Origin: Actinernus sp. WN-2022
Taxonomy: Eukaryota > Cnidaria > Anthozoa > Actiniaria > Actinernidae
Length of the DNA: 64,000 bases
Reading direction: 5' to 3'
NCBI GenBank assembly: GCA_030867875.1
Contig: JAOWCC010001634.1
Location: forward strand, 36,289,867 to 36,353,866
Shown: piece by piece, positions 14,196-53,890 of the stretch
Layout: each line of letters starts with the position of its first letter
Numbering within the stretch: the first letter of the stretch is position 1
Translations under genes and position numbers: made by a program
Notes under the pieces: model-generated
The model's input: the letters and a program-made list of their open reading frames with translations, nothing else
What the model was told of the DNA's origin: nothing
Database searches by the model: none

Positions 14196-14971
14196 GTACA
14201 GCCATCGGCTGCCGCAAGGAATATAGGAGTAGTTTTTGATAGTTGTCTGTCAATGGAAATGCAAGTTAAATCAGTTTGTAAGTCTGCACTATACCATCTT
14301 AGGAAAATCAGTAAGATTCGAAATTATCTGTCAGAGGAATCAACAGAGAAGCTTGTCCACGCCTTCATTACATGTAGGCTTGACAACTGCAATTCTGTAC
14401 TTTATGGGTTGCCTAAAAGCCTAATCCAAAGGCTTCAGCGCGTTTAGAACTGCGCGGCTCGGCTTGTTACTCGCAATTCTAAATTTAGCCATATAACGCC
14501 AGTCCTTAAAGATCTACACTGGCTGCCAGTAGAGAAACGAATAATTTTTAAACTTCTTCTCATTACCTATAAGGCTCTCAATGGCTTAGCGCCATCATAT
14601 ATTAATGATATGCTTCATACTTATGTGCCCAATCGCAACTTAAGGTCTGCTAGAAAGTACCTATTAATTGTTCCACCCTCAAATCTGAGGACATACGGGG
14701 ACAGATCTTTTTCCGTTGCTGCCCCAAAACTTTGGAATGGTCTTCCACTGGACCTTAGATGTAGTTCTACTGTAAATATTTTTAAATCTCATCTAAAGAC
14801 TCATATTTTTAGGGAAACGTATTTGTAAATATTTTTTCTTTTGTTTTTAATGTATTTTAACGATCTTTGTATTTAGGTTTTAATTTTTCAACATTGTAAA
14901 GCGCCATAGAGCATTTAATGGATATGGCGCTATATAAGTACACTATTATTATTATTATTATTATTATTATG
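14195..14971 (+). pseudogene. L2-like LINE C-terminus and 3' end with (ATT)n tail
   Basis: Starting near 14,220 the plus strand encodes the L2-type C-terminal region: IGVVFDSCLSMEMQV, then LRKISKIRNYL, LDNCNSVLYGLP, LKDLHWLPVEKRIIFKLL, YKALNGLAPSYI and APKLWNGLPLDLR. It ends at a stop at 14,826. One in-frame stop near 14,447 breaks it. The 3' UTR ends in GGCGCTATATAAGTACAC followed by (ATT)n at 14,944-14,970, the classic L2-like 3' terminus. The SINE at 27,774-28,149 ends the same way. Confidence 0.85.
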
Positions 14972-15104
14972 TGATGTATAAACACACATTACTCTGGAGA
15001 ATTGACTCTTTGAAAATTAATTTTATTCAGATAGGCATGACTGCATTATGATTAAAATGAAAGAGAAATAATTCCCCAGAGTAGCACTGTTTACATCACA
15101 TGAT
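14972..15104. mobile_element. Short palindromic MITE
   Basis: GTGATGTATAAACACACATT then ACTCTGGAG at the left is inverted as CCCCAGAGTAGCACTG then TTTACATCAC at the right, with a 70-bp AT-rich centre. It lies directly between the LINE tail at 14,971 and the next LINE. A target duplication is not clear. Confidence 0.6.
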
Positions 15105-20057: not shown

Positions 20058-20268
20058 AATAATATTAATAGAAAACTAATAAGCAAATACCGTGGACAAA
20101 AATCCTGTTAAAATACGTTGGATCCGAAGTGAGGACCTATGCAGCCAAAAATATAAACAATAACGAATGAAAAGTCCGAAGACTACAGCAAAGCTGATAT
20201 ACAACGTAAAAATCTAACACAAAGCACTACGGTTAGCTAGGCCTGACACGAAAAGCGCTCGGACCAGA

Positions 20269-20325
20269 TTGCAGCCATAGACAGCTGTTTCGTTCTTATT
20301 AGAACTCGTCAGTATGGCATAGCAA
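20269..20325 (-). ncRNA. Type I hammerhead ribozyme, copy 1
   Basis: The reverse complement has all core parts. CTGACGA is at 20,312-20,306. Stem II is GTTCT/AGAAC with an AATA loop. GAAA is at 20,291-20,288. Stem III is ACAG/CTGT with no loop bases. The cleavage triplet GTC is followed by stem I GCCATA/TATGGC, extended by TTGC/GCAA. Predicted cleavage is 3' of the C complementary to G20,280. Confidence 0.9.
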
Positions 20326-20883
20326 ACAGCACGCAGGCTTCGGTACCACTGCACCATCGACCCGGACTGAGCTAAAAAGCATCTAGTTTCGAGCAACAGA
20401 AATGCTTGGTTATCGGCTCACACGATAACTCACACGAGCGCTTTTCGTGTCAGGCCTAGCTAACCGTAGTGCTTTGTGTTAGATTTTTACGTTGTATATC
20501 AGCTTTGCTGTAGTCTTCGGACTTTTCATTCGTTATTGTTTATATTTTTGGCTGCATAGGTCCTCACTTCGGATCCAACGTATTTTAACAGGATTTTTGT
20601 CCACGGTATTTGCTTATTAGTTTTCTATTATGGATTTTTGTACCGTAGGTCTTATATAGATCCGATCATTCCTGTTGTCATCATTTATAAAGCTGGTCTG
20701 GCCAGCATAACTATATCTTTCGCAAGGCACTGACACGTTTAGTTCAGATTTCCTTGGTTTTTGGCTTTTCGCCACACGTAATGACGTGTGAGCCGATAAC
20801 CAAGCATTTCTGTTGCTCGAAACTAGATGCTTTTTAGCTCAGTCCGGGTCGATGGTGCAGTGGTACCGAAGCCTGCGTGCTGT

Positions 20884-20940
20884 TTGCTATGCCATACTGA
20901 CGAGTTCTAATAAGAACGAAACAGCTGTCTATGGCTGCAA
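20884..20940 (+). ncRNA. Type I hammerhead ribozyme, copy 2
   Basis: Stem I is GCCATA (20,891-20,896) with TATGGC (20,930-20,935), extended by TTGC (20,884) with GCAA (20,937). The core is CTGACGA at 20,897-20,903. Stem II is GTTCT/AGAAC closed by AATA. GAAA is at 20,918-20,921. Stem III is ACAG/CTGT with no loop. The cleavage triplet is GTC, cut after C20,929. Such short stem III hammerheads usually work as dimers in tandem transcripts. Confidence 0.92.
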
Positions 20941-21396
20941 TCTGGTCCGAGCGCTTTTCGTGTCAGGCCTAGCTAACCGTAGTGCTTTGTGTTAGATTTT
21001 TACGTTGTATATCAGCTTTGCTGTAGTCTTCGGACTTTTCATTCGTTATTGTTTATATTTTTGGCTGCATAGGTCCTCACTTCGGATCCAACGTATTTTA
21101 ACAGGATTTTTGTCCACGGTATTTGCTTATTAGTTTTCTATTATGGATTTTTGTACCGTAGGTCTTATATAGATCCGATCATTCCTGTTGTCATCATTTA
21201 TAAAGCTGGTCTGGCCAGCATAACTATATCTTTCGCAAGGCACTGACACGTTTAGTTCAGATTTCCTTGGTTTTTGGCTTTTCGCCACACGTAATGACGT
21301 GTGAGCCGATAACCAAGCATTTCTGTTGCTCGAAACTAGATGCTTTTTAGCTCAGTCCGGGTCGATGGTGCAGTGGTACCGAAGCCTGCGTGCTGT

Positions 21397-21453
21397 TTGC
21401 TATGCCATACTGACGAGTTCTAATAAGAACGAAACAGCTGTCTATGGCTGCAA
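21397..21453 (+). ncRNA. Type I hammerhead ribozyme, copy 3
   Basis: This is identical in sequence to copy 2 and lies exactly 513 bp downstream, with the predicted cut after C21,442. The RNA between the two plus-strand cuts (20,930-21,442) would be a 513-nt monomer. Confidence 0.92.
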
Positions 21454-21527
21454 TCTGGTCCGAGCGCTTTTCGTGTCAGGCCTAGCTAACCGTAGTGCTT
21501 TGTGTTAGATTTTTACAATAATATTAA

Positions 21528-39373: not shown

Positions 39374-39567
39374 TCAAGAATTTACTATAGAGTACAACTG
39401 GCAACTTTTCACAGTTCCATATATTAAAAAAACGTTTCGGCTTTCAGCCTTCATCAGTTAAAAGTATTTTATTTTTTACTTTTTAACTGATGAAGGCTGA
39501 AAGCCGAAACGTTTTTTAATATATGAAACTGTGAGAAGTTGCCAGTTGTACTCTAGTAAATTCTTTA
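39374..39567. mobile_element. About 190-bp near-perfect palindrome with hammerhead-like core
   Basis: The left arm (AGAATTTACTATAGAGTACA, AACTGGCAACTTTTCACAG, AACGTTTCGGCTTTCAGCC) is the inverse of the right arm, with a centre near 39,472. CTGATGA, a GGCT/AGCC stem and GAAAC occur on both strands. That is a hammerhead-like arrangement, but one extra A separates CTGATGA from the stem, so it is not canonical. (TA)n flanks both sides. It may be a Penelope-like terminal repeat or a foldback MITE. Confidence 0.55.
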
Positions 39568-39643: not shown

Positions 39644-39680
<37 letters not shown>

Positions 39681-39686
<6 letters not shown>

Positions 39687-41466
39687 CATCCACATCTGTC
39701 CAATTCGCTAGGTTGAACAAACATGGAATCATGATACAATGCGCCATCTCGGCTATCACCATAATGGCTTTATGGCAACTCTGCACTTTGGACACAGGAT
39801 GTACGGATACACATTGTAGGATTGCATTGTGAAATCACCAGAGTGCTCAAACTGCGAGCAGCGAGCATAGCACAGTGCTAATAGTGAACGTCTCAGCGAG
39901 ACTCTCCACCCAATCCGTAAGAGTGCTCAAACTGCATGAACAGTGAGCGTAATATATATATACAATCATCCACATCTGTCCAATTCGCTAGGTTGAACAA
40001 ACATGGAATCATGATACAATGCGCCATCTCGGCTATCACCATAATGGCTTTATGGCAACTCTGCACTTTGGACACAGGATGTACGGATACACATTGTAGG
40101 ATTGCATTGTGAAGTCACCAGAGTGCTCAAACTGCGAGCAGCGAGCATAGCACAGTGCTAATAGTGAACGTCTCAGCGAGACTCTCCACCCAATCCGTAA
40201 GAGTGCTCAAACTGCATGAACAGTGAGCGTAATATATATATACAATCATCCACATCTGTCCAATTCGCTAGGTTGAACAAACATGGAATCATGATACAAT
40301 GCGCCATCTCGGCTATCACCATAATGGCTTTATGGCAACTCTGCACTTTGGACACAGGATGTACGGATACACATTGTAGGATTGCATTGTGAAGTCACCA
40401 GAGTGCTCAAACTGCGAGCAGCGAGCATAGCACAGTGCTAATAGTGAACGTCTCAGCGAGACTCTCCACCCAATCCGTAAGAGTGCTCAAACTGCATGAA
40501 CAGTGAGCGTAATATATATATACAATCATCCACATCTGTCCAATTCGCTAGGTTGAACAAACATGGAATCATGATACAATGCGCCATCTCGGCTATCACC
40601 ATAATGGCTTTATGGCAACTCTGCACTTTGGACACAGGATGTACGGATACACATTGTAGGATTGCATTGTGAAGTCACCAGAGTGCTCAAACTGCGAGCA
40701 GCGAGCATAGCACAGTGCTAATAGTGAACGTCTCAGCGAGACTCTCCACCCAATCCGTAAGAGTGCTCAAACTGCATGAACAGTGAGCGTAATATATATA
40801 TACAATCATCCACATCTGTCCAATTCGCTAGGTTGAACAAACATGGAATCATGATACAATGCGCCATCTCGGCTATCACCATAATGGCTTTATGGCAACT
40901 CTGCACTTTGGACACAGGATGTACGGATACACATTGTAGGATTGCATTGTGAAGTCACCAGAGTGCTCAAACTGCGAGCAGCGAGCATAGCACAGTGCTA
41001 ATAGTGAACGTCTCAGCGAGACTCTCCACCCAATCCGTAAGAGTGCTCAAACTGCATGAACAGTGAGCGTAATATATATATACAATCATCCACATCTGTC
41101 CAATTCGCTAGGTTGAACAAACATGGAATCATGATACAATGCGCCATCTCGGCTATCACCATAATGGCTTTATGGCAACTCTGCACTTTGGACACAGGAT
41201 GTACGGATACACATTGTAGGATTGCATTGTGAAGTCACCAGAGTGCTCAAACTGCGAGCAGCGAGCATAGCACAGTGCTAATAGTGAACGTCTCAGCGAG
41301 ACTCTCCACCCAATCCGTAAGAGTGCTCAAACTGCATGAACAGTGAGCGTAATATATATATACAATCATCCACATCTGTCCAATTCGCTAGGTTGAACAA
41401 ACATGGAATCATGATACAATGCGCCATCTCGGCTATCACCATAATGGCTTTATGGCAACTCTGCAC
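39681..41466. repeat. 280-bp satellite array, 6.4 copies
   Basis: Units start at 39,681, 39,961, 40,241, 40,521, 40,801, 41,081 and 41,361 (partial, ending 41,466). Each starts TACAATCATCCACATCTGTC and ends AGTGAGCGTAATATATATA. They are almost identical; I noticed GAAATCACC in the first unit versus GAAGTCACC later. GAGTGCTCAAACTGC occurs twice per unit. A 60-codon minus frame recurs in each unit only because the unit does. No ribozyme core is visible. Confidence 0.95.
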
Positions 41467-51119: not shown

Positions 51120-51491
51120 GGGTGTTTGTAAAACGCGGTCACGGATGGCGGATGACGGATGGCGGATGGCGGATGGCGGATGGCGGATGGCGGATGGCGG
51201 ATGGCGGATGGCGGATGACGGATGGCGGATGGCGGATGGCGGATGGCGGATGGCGGATGGCGGATGGCGGATGGCGGATGGCGGATGGCGGATGGCGGAT
51301 GGCGGATGGCGGATGGCGGATGGCGGATGGCGGATGGCGGATGGCGGATATGTTAAAATATATGAAGAAAAAAAATTGGGTTGAGCAGCTCTGGTTTTGA
51401 TTCTACGCGTTTTGTGTGCTTCACTCGGGATGTATACATAAAAAATATCAGCTAGCGTACCGAATTATGTTATTACGTGTTGATATTTTCT
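51120..51491. repeat. Left terminal inverted repeat of the 12.5-kb insertion
   Basis: It contains the long heptamer array (51,142-51,349). The conserved inner segment AGCAGCTCTGGTTTTGATTC to ATTACGTGTTGATATTTT follows, and its inverse is at 63,419-63,530. Confidence 0.9.
51142..51349. repeat. GGATGGC 7-bp minisatellite (about 30 copies)
   Basis: Consecutive GGATGGC units are seen, with two GGATGAC variants near the start. Three units make 21 bp, so any frame yields a seven-residue peptide repeat; this is not evidence of a protein. The right TIR has only about ten copies. Confidence 0.95.
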
Positions 51492-51539: not shown

Positions 51540-52107
51540 AACCCTGCTAGCAGAGGTTATTTTCTCTTACCCTCTCTCCAGTTCCACTAACGAGGGAGAA
51601 AGTAACCTCTGGCACTATCCGAACGGTTTTCTGTTGAGCATGCGCCACGGTATCTGGATTTCCATTGGCCGAGAAAAACGAGACAGTAAACATTGTAGAT
51701 TTCCTATTGTTAACGGCAAGAGAAGGCGTGTGGGAAAAATAAAATAAATTTCCTTCGTCGAGAGTGATGTTGCTTTCCTTGAGGTTTGACACAGCTACTT
51801 TTAACGCTACTTCGAACTCGCTCACGCTCATGTTCACTCCAAAAACAGATGACATCTTGAAACTGCAGATTCTAGACTGGGCAGTGTTTAATAGTATCAG
51901 CAGGTCATGTGCGTGTGACGTCGATCTCGAGAAACCGGTTTTTAAACCGGTTAGTCATGTGACTTACCTCCAAAAACTTGGAGCCGGCGAGATCTAAAGA
52001 ACCGTTCGGATCGTGGTACCCTGGTTCCAGAGGTGCTCAGGTACGGATATACTGTAATGTGCCGCGATCGAAGGAGTTTTGATTCCCGAACCTCTGCTAG
52101 CAGGGTT
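51540..52107. mobile_element. 568-bp MITE with 9-bp TSD
   Basis: AACCCTGCTAGCAGAGGTT and its exact inverse AACCTCTGCTAGCAGGGTT are the ends. The direct repeat AGCAGTGCA is at 51,531-51,539 and 52,108-52,116. A segment at 51,639-51,727 is the inverse of segments in the three large modules (56,382-56,498; 60,838-60,951; 62,033-62,146). A 9-bp TSD suggests a Mutator-like origin. Confidence 0.88.
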
Positions 52108-52116
52108 AGCAGTGCA

Positions 52117-53890
52117 GTATTCCGCTCCCGGCCGCTCCCGGCTGGGGAGCTCTCATTTGTACTACCTGTACCGTAACAAGGTCATAAAACTATGCAAACA
52201 TGCACGCAGTCGTTTCTACCACGACACCGTGAGCCAAATGCAGGATACCAACCCAAAGAAGTGGTGGAGTAACATCAAACTAATGTCTGGCCTATCAAAA
52301 CCTGCACCACTTTCAAGTATCACTGTTAATGGGACAATCTTGAAAGACACAGACCTTGTTGAAGCAATTAATGACTCCTTCAGTAATGTTGCTAGTGATA
52401 TCCCTCCTCTCGAATTCACCCCTATCCCTGTACACTACACCCCCGATGAATACATTATTAGCCCGGAAGCTGTTGAACGTTCACTACTGGCCATCAAAGA
52501 GCGCAAGTCACGTGGACCGGATGAAATTCCTAACTGGGTTCTGAAGAACTTCGCACCAATGTTATGCCGCCCAGTGTGTTCTATATTCAATTCCTCTATT
52601 AGCCAAGGCCACGTCCCTTCTCTGTGGAAGTGTGCTAATGTCCTGCCCCTAGGTAAAGTTCCTCAGCCGCGCTCCATTGATAGTGACCTCAGGCCGATTT
52701 CTCTAACTGCTGTTCTTAGCAAGGTACTTGAAGGCTTTGTTTTCGATTGGCTTGCAGCTGTCGTGATGCCATTCATCGACCCTTTTCAGTTCGGTAGTGT
52801 GAAAAAGACCTCCACGACGCATGCTCTGGTCCATCTCATCCATCAATGGCTGGCTGCTACTGAGTCTCCTAAAACTGTGGTGCGTTCTTGTTTAATTGAC
52901 TTTTCTAAGGCTTTTGACAGAATTGACCATAATATCTTGTTACACAAGCTCCAATTACTTAATGTTCCTCCCATTCTACTGAACTGGTGTGCACACTTTT
53001 TACAAGATCGTCAGCTTCGGGTGAAACTGGGTAACTCTACTTCTACTTGGAAACCTATTCATGCTGGGGTACCACAAGGAACAAAACTTGGGCCCTTATT
53101 TTTCCTAGTTATGGTGAATGATTTATCTGCTACACTCCCTTTGTACAAGTACGTAGATGACGTTACGGTGTTTGAGGTCATATCCTTATCGTCGATCGAG
53201 CCATCTGTCTTACAGCGAGAACTTGACAAGATCTGTGAATGGACATCGTCTAATAATATGAAGCTGAATGTCACAAAAACTAAAGAGTTTACCATCTCCT
53301 ACGTTAAGGACCCAAAGTCGCTGGAACCACTTACAGTTAACAGCCTGCCCCTCGAGTCAGTCAAGACCACTAAACTTCTTGGGGTTCACTTGTCGTCTGA
53401 CCTCAAGTGGTCGACTCATGTGGATACTGTGTGCGCTAAAGCAAGTAAGCGTCTGTTTGCTTTACGATCCCTGAAACGAAGTGGCGTTCCATCAGGAGAC
53501 CTAAGATCGGTCTACTCCTATTTCATCCGCCCAGTTTTGGAGTATGCTTGCCCAGTTTGGCACACTTCACTGTCGCGCAAACTAAGTGATCAACTTGAAC
53601 AAATCCAACGTCGTGCTCTTCGTGTCATCTTTCCACATCTGTCCTACACTAATGGACTAACTGCACTAGATCTAACCACTCTTGAGGAGCGAAGAGAATT
53701 TCTATGTAAATCATTTTACAAGAACAATTTAAACACTACTAGTAAACTCCGCAGCCTGTTACCTGACCCTGTTGACCATTATTATAATTTTAGAAATCCT
53801 AGGAAGCTGCCCTTGTATAAATGCAGAAGTACTCGTTTCAGTAACAGTTTTTTACCATATTGTGTCCGTAAATGGGATGCTAACCCATAG
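52117..53890 (+). pseudogene. LINE reverse transcriptase (CR1/L2/RTE-type), 5'-truncated but largely open frame
   Basis: This is the longest open frame of the window, about 590 codons. It begins in the endonuclease-RT linker (YRNKVIKLCKHARSRFYHD and NPKKWWSNIKLMSGLSK). It continues through RT fingers (IKERKSRGPDEIPNWVLK, WKCANVLPLGKVPQ, LRPISLTAVLSKVLE), FQFGSVKKTSTTHAL, palm motif A (CLIDFSKAFDRIDHNIL), motif B (HAGVPQGTKLGP), motif C (YKYVDDVTVFE, both catalytic Asp present), thumb (TKLLGVHLSSDLKWSTHV) and the C-terminal YACPVWHTSL and RRALRVIFP blocks. The endonuclease is missing and no genuine start codon lies upstream, because the frame runs back into the MITE. A 3' UTR follows to about 54,047. 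The intact palm suggests a fairly recent copy. Confidence 0.9.

Follow-up and report, generated by a model that had tools for sequence, protein, structure and literature searches.

A non-coding 513-nt hammerhead retrozyme family of Actinernus sp. with two internal 3' end zones and head-to-head insertions

The closest described counterparts of the locus considered here are the non-LTR retrozymes of metazoans. According to the sections of Cervera and de la Pena 2020 (PMC7229834) used here, these elements consist of tandem units with one type I hammerhead ribozyme per unit, they have no open reading frame, a GC content below 50% and stable self-pairing, their copies are dispersed with target duplications that exceed 4 bp when present, and GIY-YIG matches (possible Penelope-like elements, PLEs) are found in the same genome. 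The family described below shares these traits, with a GC content of 42% and target duplications of at least 8 bp in 11 of 37 distinct loci. It differs in the length of its unit, 513 nt against the approximately 170-400 nt reported (PMC7229834), a span that does include a 370-nt sister unit from the same genome; we take this span as the range reported so far and not as a defining criterion. It differs further in its two start zones and head-to-head copies, whereas the main text of PMC7229834 does not contain the word 'inverted'. Tandem units of 463-505 bp with a hammerhead also make up the pDo500 satellite of Dolichopoda cave crickets, whose ribozyme has been proposed to cut both singly and in a double, paired-copy form; pDo500 is described as satellite DNA, and the portions of the two reports considered here (PMC2808323, PMC2837043) mention neither head-to-head copies nor target duplications. 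Plant LTR retrozymes are likewise non-coding, with a hammerhead and a circular RNA model, but have a type III hammerhead, LTRs, a primer site and 4-bp duplications (PMC4918200, PMC7229834, both in part), whereas the hammerhead here is of type I and the duplication in the locus under study has 11 bp. A 2020 review (PMC7761336, relevant sections) notes that no motif conserved among metazoan retrozymes points to the retrotransposon that helps them. Retrozymes as such are thus already known; the footprint of two sites and two strands appears to be new, as in the portions of the retrozyme, hammerhead and PLE literature covered we recognised neither head-to-head retrozymes nor a pair of start zones.

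The window, that is, the whole stretch of 64 kb analysed here (positions 36289867-36353866 of its contig, within a searched genome of 1.39 Gb and 1772 contigs), harbors one such insertion (Table 1). Positions within the unit are given as u1 to u513, with u1 at the ribozyme cut. The period of 513 nt is exact across the direct array, and the head-to-head arm is the exact reverse complement of 20785-21143; its outer end lies inside the zone u204-223 that is common to many loci. The limits of the insertion given in the initial annotation are exact, since AATAATATTAA is found directly outside both ends. A flank match of this kind arises in 15 of 200000 random pairs and in 24 of 200000 AT-rich pairs. 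The left and right flanks differ from each other, yet share the target duplication, and the left border shows a microhomology of 3 nt (TAA). A relative of the target repeat elsewhere in the window spans the insertion point without the insert, which, given the AAT-rich sequence of this region, lends partial support only. The unit has no coding capacity; when it is treated as circular, the longest open stretch in any of the six frames is 73 codons.

Table 1. Coordinates of the insertion, its parts and its partial empty-site relative (positions within the window).
Feature	Position	Strand	Remark
Non-coding retrozyme insertion	20069-21516		Between the two copies of the duplication
Left copy of target-site duplication, 11 bp	20058-20068		AATAATATTAA; 20066-20068 also match the element end
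Head-to-head arm, 359 nt	20066-20424	-	u369 via u513 to u214
Hammerhead copy 3	20269-20325	-	Limits transferred from copy 1 (20884-20940) via the inverted repeat; predicted cut between 20280 and 20279
Filler at head-to-head junction, 10 nt	20425-20434		TCACACGA flanks TAAC on either side
Direct array, 2.11 units	20435-21516	+	u19 to u74; units 100% identical
Hammerhead copy 1	20884-20940	+	Predicted cut after C20929
Complete 513-nt monomer	20930-21442	+	Between the two + cut sites
Hammerhead copy 2	21397-21453	+	Predicted cut after C21442
Right copy of target-site duplication	21517-21527		AATAATATTAA
Target-repeat relative without insert	14893-14972	-	Spans the insertion point; partial empty-site paralogue

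The insertion contains three identical type I hammerheads, two on the + strand and one on the - strand. The motifs named in the initial annotation stand at their places, and the two + strand copies are exactly 513 bp apart (CTGACGA at 20897-20903 and 21410-21416). Hammerhead copy 1 has a stem I (GCCATA/TATGGC) with a TAT/T internal loop and a TTGC/GCAA extension, a stem II (GTTCT/AGAAC) and a stem III (ACAG/CTGT), together with CTGACGA and GAAA. The statement that three hammerheads lie in a 513-nt unit applies to the whole insertion; each unit carries a single one. Since only two of the hammerheads are on the + strand, a + transcript is predicted to release one complete monomer. The covariance search that had been proposed for the window finds all three copies with RF00163 (Rfam) at 33.2 bits each (20891-20935 and 21404-21448 on the + strand, 20274-20318 on the - strand), slightly below the gathering score of 34; a scan of the window at that threshold gives 0 matches. 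The RF00163 model, too, has a stem III that lacks a loop. A strict descriptor with requirements for stems, core and cut site detects just these three hammerheads in the window, and matches in 3 of 200 dinucleotide shuffles (mean 0.015 per shuffle).

Comparison of four distinct hammerheads of the genome (those of the window, L032, L033 and L076) indicates that stem I is paired in every cell and that 5 of its 6 pairs have both-sided changes, that stem II is 85% paired with a both-sided change in 1 of 5 pairs, that stem III is invariant, and that the outer TTGC/GCAA extension is 75% paired. The covariation score of 0.316 compares with 0.028-0.130 for slid structures and is reached by 2 of 500 shuffles. 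The 13 core positions are hit by only 2 of the 96 distinct substitutions in other loci. The helices look to be under constraint, though four sequences are few.

The 513-nt circle has a predicted fold more stable than those of 60 shuffles (z -4.2 for the + strand); against our reading, the minus strand is likewise more stable than its shuffles (z -3.3). Within the folded circle, stems I and II have probabilities of at least 0.88. The extension that the initial annotation added to stem I is present as sequence, and its pairs reach at most 0.14. Folded by itself, the 64-nt motif favors an inactive structure in which the core CUG is paired with the CAG of stem III (p 0.82), and the active single-copy ribozyme does not form in the folding models, which also counts against our reading. 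Two copies folded together adopt the stem III of a double hammerhead with p 0.75-0.97. Because stem III is the self-complementary ACAGCUGU, cutting may work best between two copies; we treat such paired-copy cutting as a lead only, as its probability inside the 1082-nt array is at most 0.002 and the Rfam consensus, which served as control in the comparison of monomer and dimer fold energies, likewise forms no stem III when folded alone. Transcription of the + strand by Pol III would seem unlikely: runs of at least four T number 11 on this strand, against none on the - strand, and the B-box patterns applied gave no match, although there is an A-box-like TGGTGCAGTGG.

The exact core pattern, which also fits the 370-nt sister unit, occurs 549 + 532 = 1081 times on the two strands of the genome, compared to 0 + 0 occurrences of the reversed-pattern control, and the first 100 listed of the 1081 cores fall into 84 clusters. 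A DNA search gave 1943 candidates, of which the best-scored 40 were fetched, including the window's own (L050); footprint counts consequently concern near-full copies, with old or short copies unrepresented. Three of these 40 were left out of the counts, namely a duplicate (L066, of L065), the other contig of L044 (L070) and a near-copy of L073 (L074), as was a side fragment in L053. The remaining 37 distinct loci hold 1.23 to 8.8 units (median 2.4), many of them in tandem. The retrozyme-like character put forward in the initial annotation is thereby supported, and the search it had suggested for further tandem copies yielded them, several within target duplications. That annotation had noticed neither the anatomy of the insertion nor the sister family nor the two zones of priming.

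Of 178510 candidates for RF00163 in the genome, 74 were scored; they yield 68 matches, 66 of which exceed the cut-off, and 14 control genomes give none. Neighbor pairs among 33 of these matches comprise six tandem pairs at 370-380 nt and one head-to-head pair. The sister unit of 370 nt is homologous to the 513-nt unit, with 270 of 347 aligned columns identical and an alignment score of 202, compared to a maximum of 57 in 50 shuffles, and its hammerhead helices show compensatory changes. Its locus L076, read without the left flank, is head-to-head too. Exact patterns gave no relative of the unit among IMG/VR and GTDB contigs. One IMG/VR contig (L001, 7516-7541, - strand) has a hammerhead-like motif whose stem II resembles that of the window, and is otherwise dissimilar to the unit.

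Among 43 outer 3' ends of the 37 distinct loci, 40 lie in two internal zones that together cover 42 of the 513 positions, 17 at u110-131 and 23 at u204-223; the zones were picked after inspection of the data. The three ends outside them, at u74 (the window's own), u90 and u496, count against the reading of two start zones. The 5' ends are scattered, with 3 of 31 inside the two 3' zones. Two of the 31 (L002 and L059) are located exactly at u1 (p 0.0017 in a test picked after data inspection) and are possibly a genomic trace of ribozyme cutting. Units within a locus are nearly uniform: at nine sites, haplotypes agree in 1192 of 1197 comparisons within loci vs 32275 of 42568 between loci, which is matched by none of 2000 label shuffles. 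The exceptions are L062, with one alignment-dependent site, and L042, with mixed haplotypes. In L056 (1501-4126), indels at u138-142 and u301 alternate in part from unit to unit, as though the template had comprised two units. The mixed haplotypes of L042 and the alternating indels of L056 mean that templates are not always one simple monomer circle.

Head-to-head arrangements are found in 6 of the 37 loci (L044, L045, L046, L050, L054 and L056), and tail-to-tail arms in none. Each of the six has one of its outer ends at u213-219 and its other at u74-131; the second arm is short in L056 (42 nt) and L054 (175 nt), and L045 has an internal gap. In L044, A309G and a G inserted at u320 are present on both arms, and among the fetched loci these changes are found elsewhere only in its second contig; G204A and G38A are confined to one arm each. 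Both arms of L045 carry T121C and A171T, which other loci have as well. The variants shared by the arms of L044 and L045 make a single type of RNA the probable template of both arms. Five of the six head-to-head loci are flanked by a duplication of 10-11 bp, a length that 0 of 40 control draws reached for any of them, and L056 has none. The search tolerated a displacement of each border by at most 8 nt, which L044 requires. Duplications of at least 8 bp occur in only 6 of the 31 non-inverted loci (L004, L047, L060, L061, L064 and L071), and for L060 2 of 40 control draws are as long; like the lack of a duplication in L056 and the displacement in L044, this counts against our reading. The flanks of L060 (reverse complement), L065 and L069 match, seemingly the same site in copies of one dispersed repeat and possibly a target hot spot.

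A similar geometry is known from PLEs. According to the sections of PMC3846280 considered, their direct copies are accompanied by a shorter inverted copy next to them, and duplications of 8-10 bp are seen in several cases and are absent in others; the retrozyme resembles them in having direct and head-to-head copies and short duplications at part of its loci. One PLE has been described to cut and extend both strands of an AT-rich target and to start inside its RNA (PMC11167929, in part), to which the internal starts and the extension of both target strands that we infer here would correspond. Differences are the lack of an open reading frame for reverse transcriptase and GIY-YIG endonuclease in the retrozyme, and its hammerhead, which has a stem III and a stem I internal loop, unlike the minimal PLE variants in the pertinent sections of PMC7761336. 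In the same genome, 2691 candidates yielded 150 scored GIY-YIG matches, which mark putative PLEs. They include 19 neighbor pairs closer than 6 kb, 14 of them head-to-head, at least two of which look like second haplotype contigs, 5 tandem and none tail-to-tail. The first 100 listed hammerhead cores give 16 pairs within 3 kb, comprising 11 tandem, 5 head-to-head and no tail-to-tail pairs. Three tandem GIY-YIG matches exactly 3462 bp apart (G000:C734:36153706-36160899), two of them with open frames of 1075 aa, form a candidate PLE array. Judged by geometry and not by shared sequence, the helper is likely a PLE with GIY-YIG endonuclease.

Membership in the retrozymes is well supported by the anatomy of the locus. 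We consider it probable, with good if incomplete confidence, that the family is a non-autonomous, non-LTR retrozyme of the metazoan type with a 513-nt unit, copied by a PLE-like reverse transcriptase able to prime on both strands of a break. In such a cycle a genomic array would be transcribed, and the hammerheads would cut the RNA once per unit, as suggested by their sequence, by the covariation and by the two 5' ends at the cut. The ends would then be ligated into a circle, or partly cut multimers would persist. A reverse transcriptase supplied in trans would start in the vicinity of u121 or u213 on a broken target, where the ends of the fetched loci cluster, and would copy more than one unit from circle or multimer. 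Some insertions would extend both strands of a staggered break, one per zone, and the cDNAs would join at their unfinished ends; the product would be a head-to-head insert flanked by 10-11 bp of duplicated target, the anatomy seen in the window. The internal starts, the priming on both strands and the head-to-head join are conclusions drawn from anatomy that fit the window and most of the fetched loci. The narrower proposal, that one retrozyme RNA primes both strands of a single PLE-type staggered break (u213 and u74-131 of the same circle) with head-to-head joining of the cDNAs, is tentative, at somewhat less than an even chance. If true, the retrozyme would carry, in the form of its two start sites, a recognition signal of PLEs that reveals which autonomous element mobilises it.

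Mobilisation by a LINE through ordinary target-primed reverse transcription, with head-to-head copies as occasional twin priming, is unlikely in our view. It would fit the TAA microhomology at the left border and an open LINE reverse-transcriptase frame in the window (52058-53890; 610 aa without stops, with 51% identity to its best match among named proteins, which comes from Acropora digitifera), where LINE-like reverse-transcriptase fragments are present as well. In Nematostella, the 15-bp duplications of putative retrozymes have been compared to LINE duplications (PMC4918200, in part). Unlike LINE-mobilised SINEs, however, the 3' junctions of 40 loci share no A-rich or repeated tail (L048 runs into a T run); the starts fall into two internal zones, the head-to-head loci all have the same pair of outer end zones, and the GIY-YIG neighbors show the same geometry. 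A satellite spread by unequal exchange or DNA circles, with the ribozyme as a passenger, would account for tandem, homogeneous arrays and has a precedent in the cave-cricket hammerhead satellite (PMC2808323, in part), but is disfavored as very improbable: the outer 3' ends are confined to two zones while the 5' ends vary, and the end zones, the target duplications and the dispersal of loci fit reverse transcription from RNA better than exchange.

That templates are linear, partly cut multimers, with no need for a circle, is possible but rather doubtful. L002 and L059 begin at the ribozyme cut yet continue across another, uncut ribozyme, which favors cut linear multimers at least at times, and L042 and L056 point in the same direction. 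By contrast, L049 extends through 8.8 units, and uniformity within a locus is natural for a circle, though uniform copies would equally arise from a multimer transcribed from a uniform genomic array, so that the circle remains a proposal. Inverted joins are a common artefact of assembly and amplification. Such an origin of the arrangement seen here is barely credible, since the two flanks differ and share a duplication, and since the same geometry recurs in five other distinct loci with other flanks, one of which (L044) is represented by two contigs.

We note that the family shows a readable footprint, consisting of two start zones, signs of priming on two strands, head-to-head joins and an alike geometry of GIY-YIG matches in the host. 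The question of which enzyme moves retrozymes, and from what RNA, can thus be put to a direct in vitro test.

Several further features of the window were recorded. A loose hammerhead pattern by itself gives chance matches (6 observed vs 3.65 expected). Two hammerhead look-alikes (39435-39457 and 39487-39509) were rejected, as they fail the descriptor scans and, by eye, their stem II would begin with an A-C mismatch. They lie inside a near-perfect MITE-like hairpin (39376-39565), both strands of whose arms carry the hammerhead-core look-alike CTGATGA-AGGCTGAAAGCC-GAAACGT. A tandem array of a 280-bp unit (39672-41466; 6.4 copies, 99% alike) has no Rfam match listed at E up to 3. The heptamer CGGATGG forms an array of about 30 copies at 51142-51349.
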